DNA from: Gammaproteobacteria bacterium
Lineage (GTDB): Bacteria > Pseudomonadota > Gammaproteobacteria > Enterobacterales > Psychrobiaceae
Length of the DNA: 64,000 bases
Reading direction: 5' to 3'
Assembly: GCA_013214945.1 (NCBI GenBank)
Contig: JABSRT010000005.1
Location: 186,001 to 250,000, forward strand
Numbering within the stretch: position 1 is the first letter of the stretch; every line of letters starts with the position of its first letter. Made by a program: the position numbers and the translations under genes. The notes under the pieces are model-generated. The model was not told where the DNA came from and searched no databases. It was given only the letters and a program-made list of their open reading frames with translations. Shown in pieces: positions 5,593 through 54,749 of the stretch.

Positions 5593-7455
5593 TTAGGCGA
5601 CAGGGCTGCAACGAAAACGCTTGGTCATCATCAACAGCTCGGTTGATTTTTCACTGGTATCATTAACATAACGCTCAATTACCTGACTTTGTTCTTTATT
5701 GTTCGAGACATTAGCTGCGACACTGTCCATGCTTTTAGCAATCATGGTCGTAGACTCAGAAACATCTTCAATATTAACCGACAGCTCTTTGTTACGCTCG
5801 GTCACATCTTGCACCAGCAATTTAATTTGTTCGACCGCGGTTGCCGCTTTATCGCCTAAATCTCTACCGTGCTTAACGTGTTGACTGCCCTCGTCCATGG
5901 CCAGTAATAACGACTGGGTACCATTTTGCATTTCACCGATAATGTCAGCAATATCTTGGGTGGCTTGCACGGTTTTACCCGCAAGATTACGGACCTCATC
6001 AGCAACAACCGAAAAACCACGCCCTGCCTCACCTGCACGCGCCGCTTCAATGGCGGCATTAAGCGCCAGCAAGTTGGTTTGTCCGGCTAAACTGTTGATC
6101 ATCTCAATCACGCCATCAACTCGTTTTGATGATACTTCTAATTCTCGCACCTGACTATTGAGCTTATCAAACACTATGCTTAATTCACTCAAACTTCCAA
6201 TGGCACTGTTGATAACCTCACCACCCTGTTCCGCCGACAAATGAGCTTGTTGAGCTTGCTGATGCGCAGCGTCTATCGCTTGCGACATATCGTTAATAGT
6301 ACAGCTGATCTGCTCTGTCGCTGTCGCCATCGACATTGCTTGCTGATCTGTTTCTAGATTGTTGCTGACCATTTCTGACAAGTTACTCGATAAGTCGGAT
6401 GCACCTTGATCTAACGTTTGGCTACTGTCCGTAACTCGGGTTAACACTTCACTCAGTGCTGATGTCATTTTATTAACGGCCATGCCGACTTTGTCTAGCT
6501 CATCGTTGCGAGCTTCGTTAACCGCCAAACGTTGGGTTAAATCGCCATCGGCTAATTTATACAAAACCTGAGACATATTCTCTAAGGTCGTTACCACGTC
6601 ATGACTAATCCGAATTAAAAAACCCACGACCAATAAAGCCACGCCAATACACACCCCTAAGATTAATAACTTAGCTTGCGCATTCGCCTCTTGTGCGTTG
6701 GTTTGCGCCAACAGTAACTGATTCTGCAGGTAAATATTCGAACTTTCAATGCCAGATGCAAAGGTCTGATAAGCTAAATCGGCCTGGTTTTGTTGTTCAG
6801 CCATGCCCGAAATGGCGTCGACTAAAGCAGATAGCGCAACCTTAACTTCAGCCACTTTATCGCCGTAATAATCATCGAACGACATTCTTTTTGTTTCGGC
6901 TTCAAAGATTTCTAAACCTGCATAAGCTTGTTGGCGCTGCTCTGGTCCACGATGCTCAAGATAGGCATCGACGCCCACTTCAAACTTACGCCAATGTTTG
7001 GCAAACGTTGAAAACATTGAGCTTTTAATCGCCTCCATTTTATCGCTTAGCACTTGACGATAACCCTGTCCTGGCCCAACTCCCAATAGCTCTTTTTGTT
7101 GTTGCCATTGCTGTTTATGCTCAACCCAAGCTTGTAATGATTTTTTGATATCAGCAATAACTTCAGCTTCGGTGCCAGTAAGCTCACCTTGTAACGATTG
7201 TAGCTTATCGTCAAATGTTGGAATTAATTGCTGTAACGCCGCCCCGTCTGGTTTACTGTGCAAGTTCAATACTTGCAGCTGCAAAGTTTTTAGCAAGTTA
7301 GCGTTATTATTTATTTTATCGACTCGCTGCGAAGCTGAGCTAAGCACTTCTAGGGTGTTAAATGAAATGCCAGAAAGAACCGTGAAACCGACCAAGGCCA
7401 AAATTATTACTAGCCGCAGCTTACTTTTAAAGCCAAGTTGATATTTAAAAATCAT
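5593..7455 (-). CDS. Methyl-accepting chemotaxis protein
   Basis: About 620 residues. A membrane helix near residues 14-33 ([16 protein letters not shown]), a periplasmic helical sensor region of roughly 230 residues, a second membrane helix ([19 protein letters not shown]), a HAMP linker with the DGDLTQRL sequence, and a long cytoplasmic coiled-coil signalling domain. The hairpin tip that binds CheA/CheW is clear: [20 protein letters not shown] then [18 protein letters not shown]. It would report on an unknown periplasmic ligand to the flagellar chemotaxis kinase. Three possible ATGs lie at the 5' end (7476, 7458, 7455); 7455 has AGGA at six bases, the best spacing. No che genes are nearby. 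Ends with an FRCSPVA tail, so no methyltransferase-docking pentapeptide is present. Confidence 0.9.
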
Positions 7456-7845
7456 CATACATCCTGCTGTTATCATGGTTTAAGAAGCGATTGCCTGCGA
7501 CAAAAAATAGCATCAGGCGACACCGAGCATTAAAAGTCGATTAAGACAATTACGCTTAATTTCTATGTTATTTTCAGTGTCGCTGTACGAGGCTGAGTTA
7601 ATAATTCAGCAAAAGCGATGCGAGAGATGCCTGCAATTGATAATCGATCCATGATAAGAAACAACATAACTAATACTTTAATACTACAAAACGATCTAAA
7701 TAACCACAATGTTTTAACATTTTTTAAGCGTTTCCAGATTACTTATTTAGCAATACCATTGTTATGGTGTAAATTATAATAATAGTATCGCTATCAGTAG
7801 CGCTCTTTCATGCGCCAATTTTGGTACTAAAGTACTAGTTAATTA
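7456..7845. other. Intergenic upstream of the chemoreceptor, with a weak hairpin after ccoG
   Basis: About 390 bases between ccoG and the chemoreceptor, both on the minus strand. It contains a short inverted repeat, CGCTA-tcag-TAGCG at 7789-7802, followed on the minus strand by an A/T-rich run; this could be a weak ccoG terminator. The remainder is AT-rich and presumably holds the chemoreceptor promoter. Confidence 0.4.
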
Positions 7846-9228
7846 CTACATTGCATAAAATCGAGTTTCTGCATTGGTCTTAATATCTGGGTTTGCTGCT
7901 GCCGTAATGCTTAACGTTAATTTAGTTACTGATTGTTTTATATCATCGGTGGCTGCGGTTAAGGTGACTATCACGGTCACTGATTGGCCCGCGGCAACTG
8001 AAATTGGCTTATTAATGCTGCTTTGGATCCCAACGAGTCCTAATACCCTAAGCTGATACTCCATAGTGGTCGTTGATTTATTTAGTAGTTTCAATTGGTA
8101 ACTATTTTCAATGTCGTCATTATTGTTAATGCGATATAACACATTGCGATCTCGTGATACTGCGACTTCTAGCGGCACTGTTTGCACGACCGAAACAATC
8201 ATTGCAGTCACCACCAGCAACGAAATAAGTGCATAACCAATAATTTTAGGCCGGATAAAACCAGCGCCAGCACCTGCTAACCTCGCCTCGCTGGTATAAC
8301 TGATTAAGCCAGGGGCATAATTGAATTGCGCCATCGTTTGGTTGCAGGCATCAACACAAGCGCCACAATCAATACATTCGTATTGCAGGCCATCACGAAT
8401 ATCGATGCCAACCGGACAAACATCGACACACAAGTTACAGTCAACACAGTCGCCTAACCCCATCGCCTTATGATCGTCTTTACGCTTGCGCCTACCACGC
8501 CCTTCTCCACGATTTTCATCATAAGCGACCACTAAAGTTTCTTGGTCAAACATCACCGACTGAAAACGGGCATAAGGACACATGTGATGACACATTTTTT
8601 CACGTAGCCACCCGGCGTTACCATAAGTACAAATGGTGAATAAACCGACCCAAAAACTGATTGAACCAGACCATTGCAACTGCGCCATGGTGCGATATAA
8701 CTCGATCACTGGGATAAAATAAGAAACAAAAGTGGTGGCACTAAAAAAAGCCACCAGCAGCCACGCGCTATGTTTTAGGATTTTTTTTCTCAACTTATTG
8801 AGTGACCATGGCTGCTGGTCGAGTTTAATTCTTTGGTTGCGGCTGCCTTCGATTTTTTCTTCGATCCAGACAAAGCCAAACATCCAAACGGTTTGTGGGC
8901 ATAAAAAACCGCACCAGACCCGCCCTAACCAACTCGTCATAAAAAACAAAATAAAAGCGGCAACCATAAACATGCCTGCGATCAGGGTAAAATCTTGCGG
9001 AAATAAGGTCATGCCAAACACATGAAACTGTAACAAATCAAGGTCGAGCAAAATTGCAGGTTTGCCATTAATCGTCAGCCATGGCAGCGCAATAAACAGC
9101 AACATTAAAAAGCCGCCGATATAACGCCTTAAACGCTGAAAGTAACCGTGCTGTTGTCGCACATAAATGGTGCCATCGGTTGATTTGGGGGTAATTATAA
9201 GATCTTTCGGGTTTATCTCGATTGTCAT
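7846..9228 (-). CDS. ccoG: Cytochrome c oxidase accessory protein CcoG (FixG/RdxA family)
   Basis: 460 residues. An inner-membrane iron-sulfur protein needed for copper delivery during assembly of cbb3-type cytochrome oxidase. It has about five membrane helices (two near residues 37-55 and 75-96, two near 155-205, one near 328-350), a CGFLCP motif in the membrane part, and two ferredoxin-type clusters: GDCVDCNLCVDVCP and ECIDCGACVDACN. The C-terminal 110 residues form the periplasmic immunoglobulin-like domain of the family. Unusually, no ccoNOPQ, ccoI or ccoS genes flank it. A sigma-54 promoter and repeated palindromes lie upstream and match a site before the neighbouring activator gene, so local sigma-54 control is likely. 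Confidence 0.93.
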   Translation of the reverse strand: MTIEINPKDLIITPKSTDGTIYVRQQHGYFQRLRRYIGGFLMLLFIALPWLTINGKPAILLDLDLLQFHVFGMTLFPQDFTLIAGMFMVAAFILFFMTSWLGRVWCGFLCPQTVWMFGFVWIEEKIEGSRNQRIKLDQQPWSLNKLRKKILKHSAWLLVAFFSATTFVSYFIPVIELYRTMAQLQWSGSISFWVGLFTICTYGNAGWLREKMCHHMCPYARFQSVMFDQETLVVAYDENRGEGRGRRKRKDDHKAMGLGDCVDCNLCVDVCPVGIDIRDGLQYECIDCGACVDACNQTMAQFNYAPGLISYTSEARLAGAGAGFIRPKIIGYALISLLVVTAMIVSVVQTVPLEVAVSRDRNVLYRINNNDDIENSYQLKLLNKSTTTMEYQLRVLGLVGIQSSINKPISVAAGQSVTVIVTLTAATDDIKQSVTKLTLSITAAANPDIKTNAETRFYAM

Positions 9229-48608: not shown

Positions 48609-49898
48609 ATGCGAAATATAAAAGCCAAAGATAGGATGCTTCCTTGCCTGCGCTATAAATTATCTCCAGTTCTTGTCGCAATACTTACTGCTACTATCTC
48701 TGCTAATAGCTTTTCAGCGCAACCCGTAACTTTAAAAAAGCAAGTAAGCGTTAATGAAAACAAAGCGCAAGCGCAAGGGCTAGAATTACAGCGCCAAAGA
48801 CAGTTAATTGAAACGCAAGGAAAAGCGATTGAGCAACTGAAAAGTCAACTTGATGCTTTAAGTAATACCAGAACAATCAGTAAATCAAAAGCAAAAGTAA
48901 AACCGAAAAATACTCAAAGTAAAAAAGCTCAAAGTAAAACCTCCAAGATTAAACCCGTTGGCAAAGCGCCGGCAAAAAAATCGCCATCAGAAAATGTGCC
49001 AGATCTATCAACTGTAAATAATAAAGTAGGTGGAGTACTTACCGCCGCCGGCAGCTTTATTTTAGAGCCTTCATTTGGCTATTCATATACCGATAATAAT
49101 AGAGTATTTCTCGATGGTTATACTTTTATTCCGTCCTTGGTTGTCGGGATTATTGATTTAAGAGAGGTGCACCGCCATAGTTTTGTTAGCAGTCTTGCTG
49201 CAAGGTATGGCATTTCAGATCGTTGGGAAGTTGAAATGAAACTACCGTATATTGCGCGTAATGACACTCAACGTTCGCGACCTGTCAGCATTGATAGTAG
49301 TCAAGATGAAATATTTAATGCCAGTGGTAAAGGGATCGGAGACTTAGAGTTATCAACCCGTTTTCAAATAAATTCTGGTCAAGGTGGTGGTGTGATTTAT
49401 GTTGCAAATCTTGCGGCAACTATCCCAACCGGCATTAGCCCATATGATGTTGACTATGTTACCTCCGTGGCTGGTTCTAAGTTTCCTACTGAATTGCCGA
49501 CGGGTTCAGGTTATGTCAGCATCTCACCGAGTATTAGTGCAATATACTCAACAGCTCCTGGCGTACTGTTTGGCAATATAAATTATGGCTACACCATGGC
49601 AACTGATGAAGACAGTGGAAAAATAGACTCCGGTGATAGCATGGGTTTTAGCTTTGGTTTGGGACTATCATTAAATCAGAGAACATCATTAAGTTTAAGC
49701 TATTCACAAAAGCACGTATTCAAATCTGAAATAGATGGTCAAACAGTCGATGGTAGTGACCTTGATATTGGTCAGTTTATTGTTGGTTATTCTTTCCGTT
49801 ATTCGCCTAAAACTAATGTCAATTTATCGGTAGGAATAGGCACAACAGATGATGCGCCAGATGTTAGGTTAACACTGAGATTTCCAATGAAATTTTAA
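48609..49898 (+). CDS. FapF-like outer-membrane export barrel
   Basis: 429 residues. Signal peptide about 15-37 (PVLVAILTATISANSFSA), a helical coiled-coil segment (about 45-85, EQLKSQLDAL), a Lys/Ser/Pro linker (86-130) and a C-terminal beta barrel starting GSFILEPSFGYSYTDNNRVF and ending LRFPMKF with the terminal aromatic. Segments such as SLAARYGISDRWEVEMKLPYI, GKGIGDLELSTRFQI and FPTELPTGSGY match remembered FapF proteins, the trimeric channel that exports Fap amyloid subunits in Pseudomonas. Here it is convergent with the candidate subunit and peptidase genes rather than at the end of one operon. Homology call strong; export role inferred. Confidence 0.82.
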   Translation: MRNIKAKDRMLPCLRYKLSPVLVAILTATISANSFSAQPVTLKKQVSVNENKAQAQGLELQRQRQLIETQGKAIEQLKSQLDALSNTRTISKSKAKVKPKNTQSKKAQSKTSKIKPVGKAPAKKSPSENVPDLSTVNNKVGGVLTAAGSFILEPSFGYSYTDNNRVFLDGYTFIPSLVVGIIDLREVHRHSFVSSLAARYGISDRWEVEMKLPYIARNDTQRSRPVSIDSSQDEIFNASGKGIGDLELSTRFQINSGQGGGVIYVANLAATIPTGISPYDVDYVTSVAGSKFPTELPTGSGYVSISPSISAIYSTAPGVLFGNINYGYTMATDEDSGKIDSGDSMGFSFGLGLSLNQRTSLSLSYSQKHVFKSEIDGQTVDGSDLDIGQFIVGYSFRYSPKTNVNLSVGIGTTDDAPDVRLTLRFPMKF

Positions 49899-49929
49899 TG
49901 TAAGTGCTGTAGTTGATTAGCAATAGATG

Positions 49930-49958
49930 AAACGCGTGCCGCTATGCATGCGTTTTTT
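49930..49958 (+). terminator. Terminator of the fapF-like gene
   Basis: AAACGCGTGC-CGCTAT-GCATGCGTTT with one G-T pair, then a T-run; 31 bases after the stop codon. Confidence 0.85.
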
Positions 49959-50226
49959 TATGATCATATGTACGATAAAGTTAATTGGGCATTAATTACC
50001 TTCGGTTTGCTTTATTTATTATGGAGCAGTTCATAAAAACATCATAGTTAGAATTTGCTAGGGTGGTATTTAACGCGTAGAGCACGTTGTAAAGCATACT
50101 GATGGATACCAATTACGAATCGACAACGCACAGTAAAGAGTGTTCTTTGATGGGAAAATATATTGAAAGTTTTGTGGTAGCAGATTGGTTAACGGTTTGT
50201 AGCTGTAAATGGGATATATGTGAAAT
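49959..50226. other. Intergenic between convergent fapF-like and exported-protein genes
   Basis: About 270 bases after the terminator. A short minus-strand frame here lacks a signal peptide, ribosome-binding site or known motif, so it is not called. No clear terminator for the minus-strand operon was seen. Confidence 0.35.
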
Positions 50227-50730
50227 TTAGTTGTGCAAGTTAGGCAAGACATACAGACTAAAATAGTCACTACTGCTTATATTATGGTTAACACTATTTA
50301 GATTTCTGATGTCGATATTGATGGTGTTAATAGCACTGATAATTTGATTATCAAGACTGTTTTGAATTATCGATGTCAGCGGAGAATTGGTCAGTTTAGA
50401 AGATAGGTTTAATTGACCACCTTGAACGAGTAACTGATTGACAGGAGATTGATAATTGTAACTGTATGTTTCAGTACCATTGGTAAGAATATACTTGTTA
50501 ATGCTAATATCTACGATAATGCCATTGGGTAAAATGAAACCGCCACGACTAGCATCAAGCTCTGCTGAACTGACCGCTAGCCAGCTGTACCTTTCACTAC
50601 TGTAATTTTTCTGGTAGAGAGTTGTAGAGTTGATTGCTTCAGCTTGACTGTAAAATGATATAACAAACGATAATAAAATTGTTATACCGATAGTTTTAAA
50701 TCTGACAATGTTTGAGATGAAATTGCTCAT
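50227..50730 (-). CDS. Exported protein of unknown function with Gly-Gly motif
   Basis: 167 residues with a signal peptide (about 11-31, FKTIGITILLSFVISFYSQA). Residues 56-70 read AELDASRGGFILPNG; the LxxxRGG pattern resembles the double-glycine leader sites cut by C39 peptidases, and a C39 peptidase gene lies 21 bases upstream. The rest is Asn/Ser/Ile-rich with a predicted beta character (GIIVDISINKYILTNG, QLLVQGGQLNLSS), no cysteine. The fourth gene of the repeat-protein operon. Position suggests a minor subunit, nucleator or chaperone of the secreted fibre; FapA or FapE equivalence cannot be shown. Start ATG 50730 follows GGGAG closely. Confidence 0.65.
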   Translation of the reverse strand: MSNFISNIVRFKTIGITILLSFVISFYSQAEAINSTTLYQKNYSSERYSWLAVSSAELDASRGGFILPNGIIVDISINKYILTNGTETYSYNYQSPVNQLLVQGGQLNLSSKLTNSPLTSIIQNSLDNQIISAINTINIDIRNLNSVNHNISSSDYFSLYVLPNLHN

Positions 50731-50751
50731 AACTCCCAGTTTCCTTATTGT

Positions 50752-51444
50752 TTAAAAATCGATCCTAGGTGGTTGCAGCATATTAAATAATCCTAGACTA
50801 GATCTGTCGACGGCTTCGGCTAATGGTGCCTTTACTCTTAGTGCCCAGTCTGATTTGTCTCGATAATGGTTGGACGCAATTTCTTTTTTGTCTTGAATGA
50901 CAAAAATAATTCTATTTCCCCACATTTCCTTAAATTCATTGAGCGCTATTACCTTAACCCCAGCGGCTGGATCACCAATCAAAACTTCATGGTTATTACT
51001 AGACTTTATTATTACAAAGTGAAGATAACCATTATTGTTAATGATTGTGATCGCCGGAACCTGAGCTTTTTCAAGTTGCTTCAGTGTTATATGAAAGCCA
51101 TTAGATTTGTAACCCCGTTGTGATAAGTAGCGTTGCATATCTAATAATGAAAAACCCTTACTTTGGATTTTTAGTTGATCTCCGTGTTCATACATCTCAC
51201 TAAATACACTATATTCACTGACCGTATCGTCATAATGAAAACTAAGTAAACTAGCTAGAGCTGCAGAGCCACAACTAAAATCGAATTGCTGTTTATAAAC
51301 TGTTTTAAAGCGCTGCTCAGCGATACTTGATACCGCGATTGAAAAATTCCCACCACTGGCGATAGTATTAAGACTAACCATTCCAGCAATGCTTGGCTGA
51401 CTTAGCAATGCACAAGCTGTCAATATCAAAAGTTTAATTTTCAC
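50752..51444 (-). CDS. Stand-alone exported C39-family peptidase (FapD-like)
   Basis: 230 residues. Signal peptide (LLILTACALLSQPSIAG), then a C39 cysteine peptidase domain: oxyanion glutamine and catalytic cysteine in KQQFDFSCGSAALASLL (Cys58), catalytic histidine in NGYLHFVII (His142) and aspartate in VLIGDPAAG (Asp158). C39 domains usually sit on ABC exporters and cut leaders after Gly-Gly; a free periplasmic form next to a FapF-like barrel is typical of FapD in Fap amyloid operons. GTG start at 51444 with AAGG upstream. Flanked by two small exported proteins that each carry a Gly-Gly motif. Confidence 0.85.
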   Translation of the reverse strand: MKIKLLILTACALLSQPSIAGMVSLNTIASGGNFSIAVSSIAEQRFKTVYKQQFDFSCGSAALASLLSFHYDDTVSEYSVFSEMYEHGDQLKIQSKGFSLLDMQRYLSQRGYKSNGFHITLKQLEKAQVPAITIINNNGYLHFVIIKSSNNHEVLIGDPAAGVKVIALNEFKEMWGNRIIFVIQDKKEIASNHYRDKSDWALRVKAPLAEAVDRSSLGLFNMLQPPRIDF

Positions 51445-51466
51445 AATTCACCTTATTATGTCCGTA

Positions 51467-51832
51467 TTAATCTGTGCTAATCGTAATCGTTATTATGGTC
51501 GAGTCTTGGATAATTACATTATTACCGGTGTTTTGGATAATTGAAAATACCCCACTAGCCCCAGTAAATGAACTGTGGTCAATGATATTTAGACCCGTAA
51601 CGCTGTTGGTCACTTGATTATTGGTTAATTCAGCATCTAAACTAGCATTACTATTAGCTAATATATCTATGCCACCACCTAGGCCACTTTCCTCGGCTAA
51701 GTCTTCTAGTTGAACAGCGTTTTGTTGCATGAACTCCAATGGGTCTGACTCCGATGCACTAACAACGGGATGGATCATTAGCATCAGTAAGGTAAGTGGC
51801 ATATGAATGTATGTTAATTGCAGTGACCTCAT
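51467..51832 (-). CDS. Small exported protein with Gly-Gly motif and Asn-rich beta tail
   Basis: 121 residues; signal peptide about 8-26 (PLTLLMLMIHPVVSA). Then an acidic helical stretch and QLEDLAEESGLGGGIDIL with Gly-Gly at 52-54, like a C39 leader site. The rest (LDAELTNNQVTNSVTG, then FSIIQNTGNNVIIQDSTIITI) has the alternating Asn/hydrophobic look of amyloid or curlin-like repeats; no cysteine. Excellent AGGAGG five bases before ATG 51832. Separated from the big repeat gene by a strong hairpin, so probably made at lower level: a candidate minor or nucleating subunit. Confidence 0.65.
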   Translation of the reverse strand: MRSLQLTYIHMPLTLLMLMIHPVVSASESDPLEFMQQNAVQLEDLAEESGLGGGIDILANSNASLDAELTNNQVTNSVTGLNIIDHSSFTGASGVFSIIQNTGNNVIIQDSTIITITISTD

Positions 51833-51862
51833 AGCTCCCTCCTTTCATCTGTCTTGGTAAAA

Positions 51863-51891
51863 GTTGCTGGTAGCATATAACTACCAGCAAC
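51863..51891 (-). terminator. Strong hairpin between the repeat-protein gene and downstream genes
   Basis: GTTGCTGGTAG and CTACCAGCAAC, an 11-base perfect stem with seven-base loop, followed on the minus strand by TTTT. It lies 33 bases after the repeat-protein stop and 31 before the next start, so it is likely a partial terminator or 3' stabiliser that sets the ratio of major to minor components. Confidence 0.7.
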
Positions 51892-51923
51892 ATTAGTGCT
51901 TACTCTAAGCTGGTTGTTCTAGC

Positions 51924-53570
51924 TTATTGGCTACTAGCAGGATTAACATTTACGTTGCCCTGGAATGATATCTGTTGCTGAGTTAATGAACCATGACCAA
52001 GATTTTGGACATTTTGATTAATACCAGCAGTACCATTGAACGAATCGCTAATGTTATTACTTGTAACCGTACCTTCAGACTCTGTTACGTTATAAGTAAG
52101 AGTATTACCAGTCACCGTGCCATCCAAGCTTGATGAGTTCATGCTGTAAGTAATCTCATTAGTTGCCGTACCGCCATTGTTAGCTGCTGCAGTTCCCCAG
52201 CCCTCACTCCAAGCCTGGCTGTTGTCGCTGTTATCGCTGTTGTCGCTGTTATCGCTGTTATCGACAGTTGCGGTGCTGCCATTGTTAGCTGCTGCGGAAC
52301 CTGTCGCATTGGCAGTAGCCATACTGTTATCAGAGTTATCGTTGTAGCTATTAGAGTTTGCTGAGCTGCCATTGTTAGCCGCTGCTTCAGTAGCAATTGC
52401 TGAGCTATTATCAGAGCTGTCTGAGTTATCAGAATTATCAGAATTATCGTTACCGCTATCAATTGCAGAGAATGCACTGCTGCCGTTGTTAGCAGCTGCA
52501 CCTGTTGCTGTTGCTTGACTGCTGTCATTATCAGAGTTATCAGAATTATCAGAGTTATCAGAGCTATCGTTACCGCTATCAATTGCAGAGAATGCACTGC
52601 TGCCGTTGTTAGCTGCAGCGCCGGTTGCTGTTGCTTGGCTGCTGTCATTATCAGAGTTATCAGAGCTATCAGAGTGAGTTGAGTTATCTGAGTTGTTTGA
52701 GTTATCAGAATTGTCAGAGTTGTCTGAATTGTTTGAATTGTCTGAGTTATCAGAGCTGTCCGTTAATGAAAAAGCAAGGCTGCCATTATTAGCTGCAGCG
52801 CCCGTTGCACTTGCTGAACTAGTTACTGAATTATCTGAGTTGTCTGAATTATTAGAGTTGTCAGAGTTATCTGAGTTGTCTGAATTATTAGAGTTATCAG
52901 AATTATCTGAGTCGTTATTACCAATATCAGTGAATGATGCATCGTCTAATGTGCTGTTATCAGAGCTATTAGAGTTATCAGAGTTGTCTGAATTATTAGA
53001 GTTATCAGAATTATCTGAATCGTTATTACCGATGTCGGTGAATGATGCATCGTCTAATGTGCTGTTATCAGAGTTGTTAGAGTTATCTGAATTATCTGAA
53101 TTGTTAGAGTTATCTGAATTATCAGAATCATCATTAGCAATATCAGTAAAACTGGCGTCATCTAACATGCTGTTATCCGAGTTATTTGAGGCATCAGAGT
53201 TATCAGAATTGTTTGAGTTATCAGAATTGTCCGAATCATCATTAGCAATATCAGTAAAGCTTGCGTCGTCTAACGTGCTGTTATCAGAGTTATCTGAATT
53301 ATCAGAATCATCATTAGCAACATCAGAAAAGCTTGCGTCGTCTAACGTACTGTTGTCTGAGTTATTGGTATTATCAGAATTATCGGTCGTGGCTTGTGAG
53401 TTCTCGTTAGCTGATGATGAACCGTCGCCAGAAGTGTCAGAGCTGGCTGTTGCTGTTTGTGAGTCAGTAACCTCGGTGGCGGTATTTGTAGGGTTTGCCA
53501 GTGCTGAAGTGGTAGCCCCTAATAGAATAGCCATACTTGCTGCGAGTAAAGTTTTATTAAAATTTTGCAT
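51924..53570 (-). CDS. Exported Asp/Asn/Ser-rich repeat protein, candidate fibre subunit
   Basis: 548 residues; signal peptide (about 6-25, KTLLAASMAILLGATTSALA). Residues about 65-465 are low-complexity DNS tripeptide tracts in which two short modules recur: LDDASFTDI (five copies, about 38 residues apart) and AAANNGS (six copies). The C-terminal 85 residues are non-repetitive: EITYSMNSSSLDGTVTGNTL and GINQNVQNLGHGSLTQQQI, with a Gln/Asn-rich pattern seen in amyloid repeats. Very acidic, no cysteine (FapB/FapC reportedly end in CxC). Ideal GGAG before the ATG and first in its operon. Likely the main secreted structural protein; function inferred. Confidence 0.75.
   Translation of the reverse strand: MQNFNKTLLAASMAILLGATTSALANPTNTATEVTDSQTATASSDTSGDGSSSANENSQATTDNSDNTNNSDNSTLDDASFSDVANDDSDNSDNSDNSTLDDASFTDIANDDSDNSDNSNNSDNSDASNNSDNSMLDDASFTDIANDDSDNSDNSNNSDNSDNSNNSDNSTLDDASFTDIGNNDSDNSDNSNNSDNSDNSNSSDNSTLDDASFTDIGNNDSDNSDNSNNSDNSDNSDNSNNSDNSDNSVTSSASATGAAANNGSLAFSLTDSSDNSDNSNNSDNSDNSDNSNNSDNSTHSDSSDNSDNDSSQATATGAAANNGSSAFSAIDSGNDSSDNSDNSDNSDNDSSQATATGAAANNGSSAFSAIDSGNDNSDNSDNSDSSDNSSAIATEAAANNGSSANSNSYNDNSDNSMATANATGSAAANNGSTATVDNSDNSDNSDNSDNSQAWSEGWGTAAANNGGTATNEITYSMNSSSLDGTVTGNTLTYNVTESEGTVTSNNISDSFNGTAGINQNVQNLGHGSLTQQQISFQGNVNVNPASSQ
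52220..53370 (-). repeat. Coding tandem-repeat tract (DNS-rich)
   Basis: Nine-base and shorter units encoding Asp-Asn-Ser, repeated many times with synonymous changes (GATAACTCA, GATAATTCA and similar), interrupted by the LDDASF and AAANNGS module codons. The internal identity makes the tract prone to recombination, slippage and assembly errors; the copy number here should be treated with care. Confidence 0.85.
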
Positions 53571-53987
53571 ATTATGCTCCGTAAATTAATTTTTTCACCA
53601 TTTCATTCCCAAACAACTAACAACAAGCAATGGTAATGGCAATGTGCTTAATGTAAGCGTGGTAAGTTAGCGCTTGGTTGATATTCTCATTCTCATCAAC
53701 TTAAAATTCCATAAAAAGCAGGTCAAAAGATCCTTAAAAAAATCGTAATTTTAGTGTCGATATTTTTTACACTTCATTAATTTTAATTTAATGGCTGTTT
53801 TTTACATGTTGATTTTTATTGTTTTTATGTGTGTGGCTTGTTTTATGCAAACCAAGTGGCGTGTATGTTTTTTTAATTAAGGCTCTAAAAATAAAGACTT
53901 TTTATACCTTAGAGAAAAGTTTTGATTGTAGAGATAAGCCGTAGACACAAAGGACTAAATAACTAGCGGGCTATAAGGATTTTGAGA
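53571..53987. promoter_or_regulatory. Divergent promoter region, repeat protein and winged-helix regulator
   Basis: About 415 bases, very AT-rich, between the repeat-protein gene (minus) and its divergent regulator (plus). AAGGA at 53976 serves the regulator. No defined operator was recognised; its length leaves room for several sites. Confidence 0.5.
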
Positions 53988-54749
53988 ATGATTCACCGTG
54001 TGCAAAATAACGGTATCTTACTGATATCTGATGATAAATTTATTGTCGGGTTATTAACCGGATGCTGTGTGAGCCGAGACTATTATTTAGATAATATTTC
54101 TTGTGCTAATTTCCTCCAAAATAAGGCAACAGATCATGTATATAACAATATTTTAATCGACACTCGTAAAATGAGCGAGTCACTTATTGAGGTCTGTTTA
54201 GACCTACTGCAAAGTATTAATCACCAGTATCATATTCCGGTTTGTGTGATACACCTTGCTAGCGCAATTGAGATGTTAAAAAATCACGCTTGGATTGATT
54301 GTTGTTTGTGTGAACCGACAAATGAGTTGTTAGGTGACTATTTAAATAAGGTTTGTATTCAAGGCAATAATGAGCGACGAAATAATGCACGTCGTCGAGC
54401 TAGGGAGCGTAGAGGAGGTTTAGAAATTAACCTCGAAGAGCTCGATAATAATTGTTGTGAAATTGGGCCCTTTAAGATTGACCGTAATTGCCAAGTAGTT
54501 ACATATAACGGTACCGATTTAGAGTTAACAACTAAAGAGTTTAAACTTTTTAGTTTACTGGCTGACTCTTTTGAGCGTGTTTGTACGACAGACTGCATCA
54601 TTAAACATCTGTGGCCTGAGACTCATCGTGCAACCAAGTCTGACTTATATCAATATATGCATCTGTTGAGAAAAAAAGTAGAGCATGACCCTGATAACCC
54701 GCATTGGATTCTAACGGTTAAAGGTGTTGGCTATAAGCTGAAAATATAA
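53988..54749 (+). CDS. Winged-helix regulator with degenerate receiver domain
   Basis: 253 residues from ATG 53988 (AAGGA eight bases upstream; a TTG six bases earlier is too close). N-terminal receiver-like domain: ILLISDDKF with acidic pair, ILIDTRKM with a possible phospho-acceptor Asp58, but the conserved lysine position reads CCLCEPTNE, so it lacks the switch Lys and may work without phosphorylation. An Arg-rich linker (NNERRNNARRRARERRGG) leads to an OmpR-type winged helix: LELTTKEFKLFSLLADSF then DLYQYMHLLRKKVEHDP and GVGYKLKI. No kinase adjoins. Divergent from the repeat-protein operon, the obvious candidate target. Confidence 0.82.
   Translation: MIHRVQNNGILLISDDKFIVGLLTGCCVSRDYYLDNISCANFLQNKATDHVYNNILIDTRKMSESLIEVCLDLLQSINHQYHIPVCVIHLASAIEMLKNHAWIDCCLCEPTNELLGDYLNKVCIQGNNERRNNARRRARERRGGLEINLEELDNNCCEIGPFKIDRNCQVVTYNGTDLELTTKEFKLFSLLADSFERVCTTDCIIKHLWPETHRATKSDLYQYMHLLRKKVEHDPDNPHWILTVKGVGYKLKI

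Follow-up and report, generated by a model that had tools for sequence, protein, structure and literature searches.

A Fap-related locus with an Asp-Asn-Ser-rich cargo and a putative sister class of the fap operons

The window analyzed here, a stretch of 64,000 nucleotides from a gammaproteobacterium of the Psychrobiaceae (contig JABSRT010000005.1, positions 186,001 to 250,000), encodes five exported proteins and one regulator between positions 48609 and 54749, with every open reading frame (ORF) where it had been placed. These include relatives of the Fap amyloid export proteins of Pseudomonas and a large protein made of Asp-Asn-Ser (DNS) tracts. The original prediction described a rearranged Fap-like amyloid locus with an unusual DNS-repeat subunit. 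Is this a single reshuffled fap operon, or does it represent something more general? Comparison with relatives indicates that the locus, far from being an isolated case of a rearranged fap operon, is one member of a sister class that is large and poorly annotated. We label this class type II and define it by the gene set cargo, small protein, FapD and FapE-like protein, plus FapF. The features that carry the argument are listed below; signal regions of the exported proteins were assigned by inspection.

48609-49898, forward strand: FapF-like barrel of the outer membrane, N-terminal region long and polar (NF058560, FilC, PDB 5o67)
50227-50730, reverse strand: FapE-like exported protein, 167 residues (class profile; match to canonical FapE)
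50539-50574, reverse strand: double-glycine-type leader VSSAELDASRGG, residues 53-64 of the FapE-like protein (alignment conservation)
50752-51444, reverse strand: FapD-like stand-alone C39 cysteine peptidase, 230 residues, GTG start (NF058616, Pfam C39)
51467-51832, reverse strand: FapB-like small exported protein, 121 residues (class profile; repeat match)
51476-51577, reverse strand: the one Fap-like repeat in the small protein, SSFTGASGVFSIIQNTGNNVIIQ... (profile comparison; alignment A4)
51924-53570, reverse strand: cargo or subunit, a 548-residue exported low-complexity DNS protein (ORF, composition)
52161-53393, reverse strand: DNS tract of the cargo with AAANNG spacers, period 3 (sequence analysis)
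51945-52058, reverse strand: the one Fap-like repeat in the cargo, at its C terminus, NNISDSFNGTAGINQNVQNLGHGSLTQQQISFQGNVNV (C-terminal profile)

The predicted FapF-like barrel and FapD-like C39 peptidase were both borne out. In NCBIfam, the barrel protein matched the FapF model NF058560 with an E value of 3.4e-48 (164.5 bits) and FilC with 1.9e-25, and its residues 124-429 matched the solved FapF structure 5o67 (E = 7.9e-33). The PTG motif described for FapF (PMC6173800) was read by eye in its translation. The C39 protein matched the FapD model NF058616 with E = 4.5e-39 (134 bits), FilB with 1e-33 and Pfam C39 with 6.7e-20, and Cys58, His142 and Asp158 are invariant in a 7-row FapD alignment (A2). 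Both scores lie under the curated cut-offs (700 bits for the FapF equivalog, 330 for FapD); the two proteins are therefore relatives, not equivalogs, of Pseudomonas FapD and FapF. In NCBIfam, none of the window's proteins gave a FapA match, although whether that library holds a FapA model was not checked.

Relatives were collected by scanning a single genome for each species, which gave at least 579 confirmed stretches of either class, the best 80 of which were kept. With 7 loci from a plasmid collection, 17 from a Gammaproteobacteria sample and the window, these make up 105 type II loci from Alpha-, Beta- and Gammaproteobacteria, Desulfobulbia, Desulfuromonadia and Myxococcia. Profiles, to at least one of which 8 of the 105 loci contributed (the window, L014-L018, L020 and L021), found a FapE-like partner in all 105, six of them weakly at 18-28 bits (L045, L163, L051, L020, L088 and L042), and a small-protein partner in 103 (absent in L042 and L093). 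The order small protein, fapD, FapE-like protein on a single strand is kept in 103/105 loci, which excludes chance grouping. The neighbors are thus conserved together, type II loci with a DNS cargo are present in Colwellia, and relatedness and co-conservation agree with the earlier proposal of a distinct secretion or matrix system with Fap-like machinery. What did not stand is the notion of a one-off rearrangement. fapF is indeed separate and convergent to the other four exported-protein genes, but it lies downstream on the opposite strand in 39 of the 99 type II loci with FapF, the window among them, and downstream on the same strand in 48. In the comparison loci it was found downstream on the same strand in 16/18 and not found in two.

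In the Gammaproteobacteria sample, a separate set of 370 genomes, eighteen genomes, including the window's own, had a FapD scoring at least 248 bits (the next score was 215), and the other 17 loci (L150-L166) all contain both the FapE-like and the small partner. Comparison loci were the best 16 of 35 lower-scoring places (L133-L148) plus L149. The FapE-like profile matched none of these 17 loci, whereas the small-protein profile matched five weakly (18.5-25.5 bits), at FapB-sized proteins. Of the 18 comparison loci counted in all, L147 and L148 gave no FapE, and the canonical repeat was not found in two, which leaves no more than 16 as canonical fap loci in the strict sense. In public gene tables the type II partner genes are named hypothetical or transporter, or are unlisted, and no NCBIfam model matched the type II partners of Colwellia (L027) or Telluria (L071) at an E value of 1.

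A quick FapD tree, in which 37 of 119 inner branches are open and from which the short FapD of L016 and L021 were omitted (as from A2), has a branch of support 96 that separates the 103 type II rows from all type I rows and two outliers. The window FapD belongs to a clade of eight rows, all DNS loci (SH-aLRT, a Shimodaira-Hasegawa-like approximate likelihood ratio test, of 99), nearest to Colwellia, and the DNS/Gly cargo label requires three changes on the tree. The window's genome has no second FapF at the threshold used. Neither FapF nor a stand-alone FapD was found in the 8 congener genomes, several of which are incomplete (the sole FapD match, in G008, is a 708-residue frame); the locus is therefore patchily distributed within the genus. 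A genome of the same order as the window carries a canonical fap operon (L149, G057:C1:22700-33300), and so both classes occur in that order.

The original prediction listed two small exported proteins. Both are there, but neither is anonymous: the 167-residue protein is FapE-like by profile and the 121-residue protein FapB-like by position and repeat. The former has an N-terminal signal region, a double-glycine leader, a beta segment and a C-terminal Gln/Asn (QN) repeat, and Pfam and NCBIfam returned only two sub-threshold families for it (0.035 and 0.075). A profile of type II FapE-like N termini matched canonical FapE with an E value of 1.3e-8 (1.5e-6 for a longer profile, 0.44 for the reversed control). 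When leader fragments of seven type II proteins were searched, FapE was the only NCBIfam family to appear, in three of the seven, through weak matches to model positions 12-52 (E = 0.015-0.077); NCBIfam and Pfam gave no leader family, and there was one weak baculovirus-family match.

The leader of type II FapE-like proteins has the pattern ...EL..xRGG/F, the slash marking the predicted cut, after Gly64 and before Phe65 in the window. In 41 aligned sequences (alignment A3, made from the window and 40 of the 54 eligible proteins), Arg62, Gly64 and Asn124 are invariant, and Leu58 and Gly63 are at least 90% conserved. Relative to the predicted cut, GG occupies -2/-1 in 100 of the 105 FapE-like proteins (the exceptions being L020, L031, L045, L049 and L058), Arg is at -3 in 103, Phe at +1 in 88, Leu or Met at -7 in 104, and Glu at -8 in only 47. 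An AlphaFold2 model places a helix at residues 55-61 with low confidence (predicted local distance difference test [pLDDT] score of 66). A leader score, which is biased to GG by construction and was for that reason run with controls, reached 12 or more in 81/105 FapE-like proteins, while no FapD (0/105), no FapF (0/99) and no sequence of three shuffled sets (0/105 each) did. In canonical FapE this leader recurs with the ending RG(R/K)(Y/F), in 16/16 loci with a candidate ORF.

Bacteriocin leaders have the consensus LSxxELxxIxGG. C39 peptidases cleave after GG or GA (PMC10233263), and since they cut after such leaders, the FapE-like protein is the likely FapD substrate. This agrees with published hints on FapE. 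According to Rouse et al. in 2017 (PMC5557850), the FapD active-site Cys is required for FapC secretion; that study reports no FapE peptides from the first ~70 residues, describes the Fap proteins as being without canonical C39 sequences, with GG/GA motifs making FapE a candidate, and leaves the FapD target open. In 2025, FapD was described, in the text available, only as "thought to" process FapE and FapF (PMC12822426). The suspicion about FapE is thus earlier (PMC5557850); new here is the leader that appears conserved across canonical FapE and the type II proteins.

Neither the 121-residue nor the 548-residue protein matched a Pfam or NCBIfam family at an E value of 1. Profile comparisons with hhalign, whose E values are for single comparisons, connected the C-terminal repeat of the cargo to that of the small protein (1.9e-8), the small protein to the FapE-like protein (6.3e-8) and, in register, the small protein to the canonical Fap repeat (2.7e-4); the cargo against the FapE-like profile gave 0.014. 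The small protein (alignment A4, 41 of 74 proteins plus the window) would thus be what ties the gene set to Fap, with the cargo's own tie weak. Our canonical-repeat profile, built from 35 canonical repeats, detects 16/18 comparison loci at 1e-3 but 0/103 type II small proteins and 0/93 cargos, and screens anchored on that repeat therefore probably miss the class. A looser leader may also be present in the small protein: its score reached 10 in 52/103, compared with 3/103 shuffled sequences.

The cargo is rich in Asp, Asn and Ser with an amino acid period of 3, as had been described, but it does not consist solely of DNS tracts; its C-terminal repeat is common to the 121-residue protein. It has no Cys and, past residue 24, 94 acidic residues and no basic one. 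Its 33 copies of NSDNS are encoded by 21 different 15-mers, which argues against a recently copied DNA satellite. Although the subunit differs from FapC as predicted, it is not unusual within the class. Among the 105 loci, 46 cargos are Gly-rich, 35 DNS-rich (hosts include Colwellia, Paraglaciecola and Nitrosomonas) and 12 mixed, and in 12 loci, some on contigs that end within the locus, none was recognized; a regular expression found a cargo in 74 loci and a composition rule in 93. DNS cargos have median contents of 14.8% Asp/Glu and 1.1% Lys/Arg. The C-terminal repeat occurs once in 84 of 93 cargos, four times in three and not at all in six, as counted with a profile built from 81 cargos, most of them counted again here. 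This C terminus is mostly retained across lineages whatever the filler. The expected cysteine tail is absent, as had been noted, but CxxC occurs in the last 60 residues of only 3/16 canonical FapC proteins, and missing cysteines were rejected as a mark of the class.

Several side observations concern the cargo. AAANNG motifs recur between the tracts of the window cargo (52160-52660), and ANNG occurs in 19/35 DNS cargos and 19/46 Gly cargos; because it is found in both types, the two fillers may share ancestry. Four Nitrosomonas loci (L036, L038, L039 and L041) have two tandem cargo paralogues with differing DNS filler. In Indioceanicola profundi (L020:6717-8902), a type II small protein lies beside a cargo with many Fap-like repeats, which looks intermediate. 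A 298-residue antisense ORF with Ser-Glu-Leu repeats (52693-53589, forward strand) crosses the DNS tract and most likely just follows mechanically from the codons.

We consider it probable that the window carries a type II locus for Fap-related export and assembly, in which FapD trims the FapE-like protein, FapF provides the exit and the DNS protein forms a brush. From homology and anatomy we infer the following course for cleavage, export, fiber formation and brush function. The Sec route would carry all five products to the periplasm or outer membrane, where FapD would cut the FapE-like protein after its double-glycine leader (RGG/F) and probably also the small FapB-like protein at its looser leader. 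Leader processing would license export through the FapF barrel, and the DNS protein would exit unfolded via FapF. The single C-terminal repeats of the cargo and small protein may then stack in, or cap, a surface beta assembly, while the ~400-residue Asp/Asn/Ser tract would remain outside and form a strongly hydrated, polyanionic brush that could bind divalent cations. The reading of the mature DNS protein as a polyanionic brush, on a single-rung fiber or matrix, is suggested by its 94 acidic and no basic residues.

Several points, besides the curated cut-offs that FapD and FapF miss, weigh against this reading. The window FapE-like protein, or its fragment alone, gave no NCBIfam FapE match. 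At a leader score of 10 or more, 101/105 FapE-like proteins are accompanied by 13/105 FapD, 16/99 FapF and 1-7/105 shuffled sequences. The pattern L...RG[GRM] is present in just 59/103 small proteins, and that of the window has a weak leader-like segment without the leader Arg (EESG-LGGG). Compared with the canonical repeat, the repeat of the cargo gave a weak match (0.011) and the C terminus of the FapE-like protein none (0.39). AlphaFold2 gave a pLDDT of 58 for the small protein, as well as the 66 of the FapE-like protein, and no fold supports the repeat. FapF may be an additional FapD target, with GG before its VLTP motif in 21/73. Finally, the 80 scan loci were chosen by FapD similarity to the window, so that class frequencies are biased and give no unbiased count.

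The strongest alternative, which we nevertheless regard as unlikely, is secretion without amyloid: the DNS protein would form no fiber but serve at the surface as a polyanionic polymer that binds cations or prevents adhesion, with its C-terminal repeat as the anchor. The excess of Asp/Glu and lack of Lys/Arg past residue 24 would suit such a polymer, as would the one repeat per cargo in 84/93 and the lineages that swap the filler to Gly-rich yet retain the C terminus. Against it, exported proteins of this locus have the repeat in common, and the copy in the small protein aligns in register with the amyloid repeat.

A reshuffled canonical operon, whose FapC linker drifted to DNS repeats and which still makes a normal Fap amyloid fiber, would account for the homology of FapD, FapE and FapF. 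Moreover, among published departures from the canonical layout none is more frequent than fapA loss and fapF separation; Aeromonas, Shewanella and Vibrio are among the genera that show them, and a FapB with one repeat occurs in Vibrio (PMC3792158, Dueholm 2013). This explanation is already disfavored and seems to us improbable: the canonical-repeat profile finds 16/18 comparison loci and no type II small protein or cargo, the single repeat is the rule in cargos, and the leader pattern of 59/103 FapB-like proteins has a similar counterpart in 0/15 canonical FapB.

We give equally little weight to the proposal that the plug or linker of FapF is the essential FapD target and the FapE leader a structural element. 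A GG/GA near the FapF plug has been proposed as a target (PMC5557850), and the window FapF carries KVGGVLTAAG. Among the 73 type II FapF proteins in which the VLTP motif was found, however, the preceding residues are GG in 21 and PG in 34, compared with GG in 100/105 FapE-like proteins, and FapF was rejected as a conserved GG-bearing target.

That the locus is a Fil-type system, the putative pilus of Acinetobacter, is very improbable; the FilB and FilC matches invite the comparison, but the FapD and FapF models outscore them and none of the six window proteins matched a Fil partner model. We dismiss the idea that the DNS ORF is a satellite artifact and no gene, since its low complexity and the antisense ORF through its tract are outweighed by the 21 codings of NSDNS and a C terminus and position conserved in relatives.

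If the type II Fap-related reading is true, export of the Fap type extends further than has been assumed, and the proteins that it carries vary much more. FapB and FapC have been described as almost invariably three-repeat proteins and Fap as an evolutionarily "fixed" amyloid, in a 2025 survey whose screen was anchored on the FapB/C repeat (PMC12822426, available text); our own profile, comparable to the one used there, detects no type II repeats. The leader would offer a residue-exact, quickly testable prediction for the FapD substrate, and lysine-free polyanionic or Gly-rich brush subunits would be new material designs. In the searchable literature, which mostly excludes subscription papers, preprints and supplements, we found no account of type II as a class, of a DNS cargo or of an RGG leader.

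Like the window, the Pseudomonas Fap system (FapA-F) has a C39 FapD, the FapE leader pattern, a FapF with a PTG motif and exported subunits, and the Fap-like repeat is shared by the small protein and, weakly, the cargo. It differs in that the type II small protein and most cargos have one repeat rather than three, the low-complexity cargo is of the DNS or the Gly-rich kind, the leader ends in RGG instead of RG(R/K), and FapF is often on the opposite strand; with its convergent fapF, the window has no single fapABCDEF operon. The double-glycine leaders of class II microcins have an upstream LSxxELxx pattern. Class II microcins share with type II a C39 peptidase and a leader ending in GG or GA (PMC10233263), but their C39 domain is part of an inner-membrane ABC transporter, whereas FapD is stand-alone and exported and would act after Sec. 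Co-localization of fapD and fapF in five further phyla (Rouse 2018, PMC6173800) involves the same two components side by side; the available text gives no cargo, leader or repeat, and overlap with type II is possible. The Acinetobacter fil locus (FilA-FilF) likewise combines a C39 peptidase with a FapF-like barrel but has other partner proteins and is annotated as a putative pilus system. After its signal region, FilA (L171:6714-7553) has MDDAALSAATGQDGINI, which by eye resembles the type II small-protein leader (ELDGATGREGIDV in Nitrosomonas).

More tentatively, and with rather less conviction than for the type II locus itself, Fap may be one branch of a wider pathway of Sec export, a second double-glycine leader, periplasmic C39 trimming and FapF-type exit. 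Type II would lead to single-repeat, brush-coated fibers whose filler, polyelectrolyte or Gly-rich, is exchangeable, and other branches, such as that on Acinetobacter plasmids, may export different small proteins. On two such plasmids (L022 and L169) a FapF-like barrel, of which L169 has only part, accompanies a C39 peptidase that stands alone. Their small exported proteins (L022:5447-5773, 7340-7807 and 8254-8637; L169:404-970) have a common leader end, ELS(R/N)QEMKDTQGA, and differing C termini. This set is a possible further branch of C39/FapF-type export.

Two further features accompany the exported-protein genes of the window:

49929-49956, forward strand: terminator-like hairpin with a T-run after fapF (hairpin scan)
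53982-54749, forward strand: OmpR-type winged-helix regulator, divergent, the presumed local regulator (Trans_reg_C)

The predicted divergent regulator is present; it diverges from the cargo gene and matched Pfam Trans_reg_C with E = 2.6e-18. Homologues occur in the fetched DNA of 9/105 type II loci, the window included (Colwellia, Paraglaciecola, Kineobactrum, Methylobacter and Methylomonas), and a sigma-54-type activator was found in that of 45/105 type II and 14/18 comparison loci. The region has 4 terminator-like sites, with 4.3 expected from shuffles, so the site after fapF is notable by position only; we claim no promoter, since 19 sigma-70-like sites were observed and 23.3 expected. Searched against the window's genome, the 548-residue protein gave no other match at an E value of 1. 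On the plasmid of Vibrio sp. SCSIO 43009 (L016:7605-9625) the cargo is without its C terminus, the small protein and FapD are short, and the locus looks damaged. Two Massilia genomes (L081 and L098) each carry two type II FapF, two small and two FapE-like proteins within one stretch.

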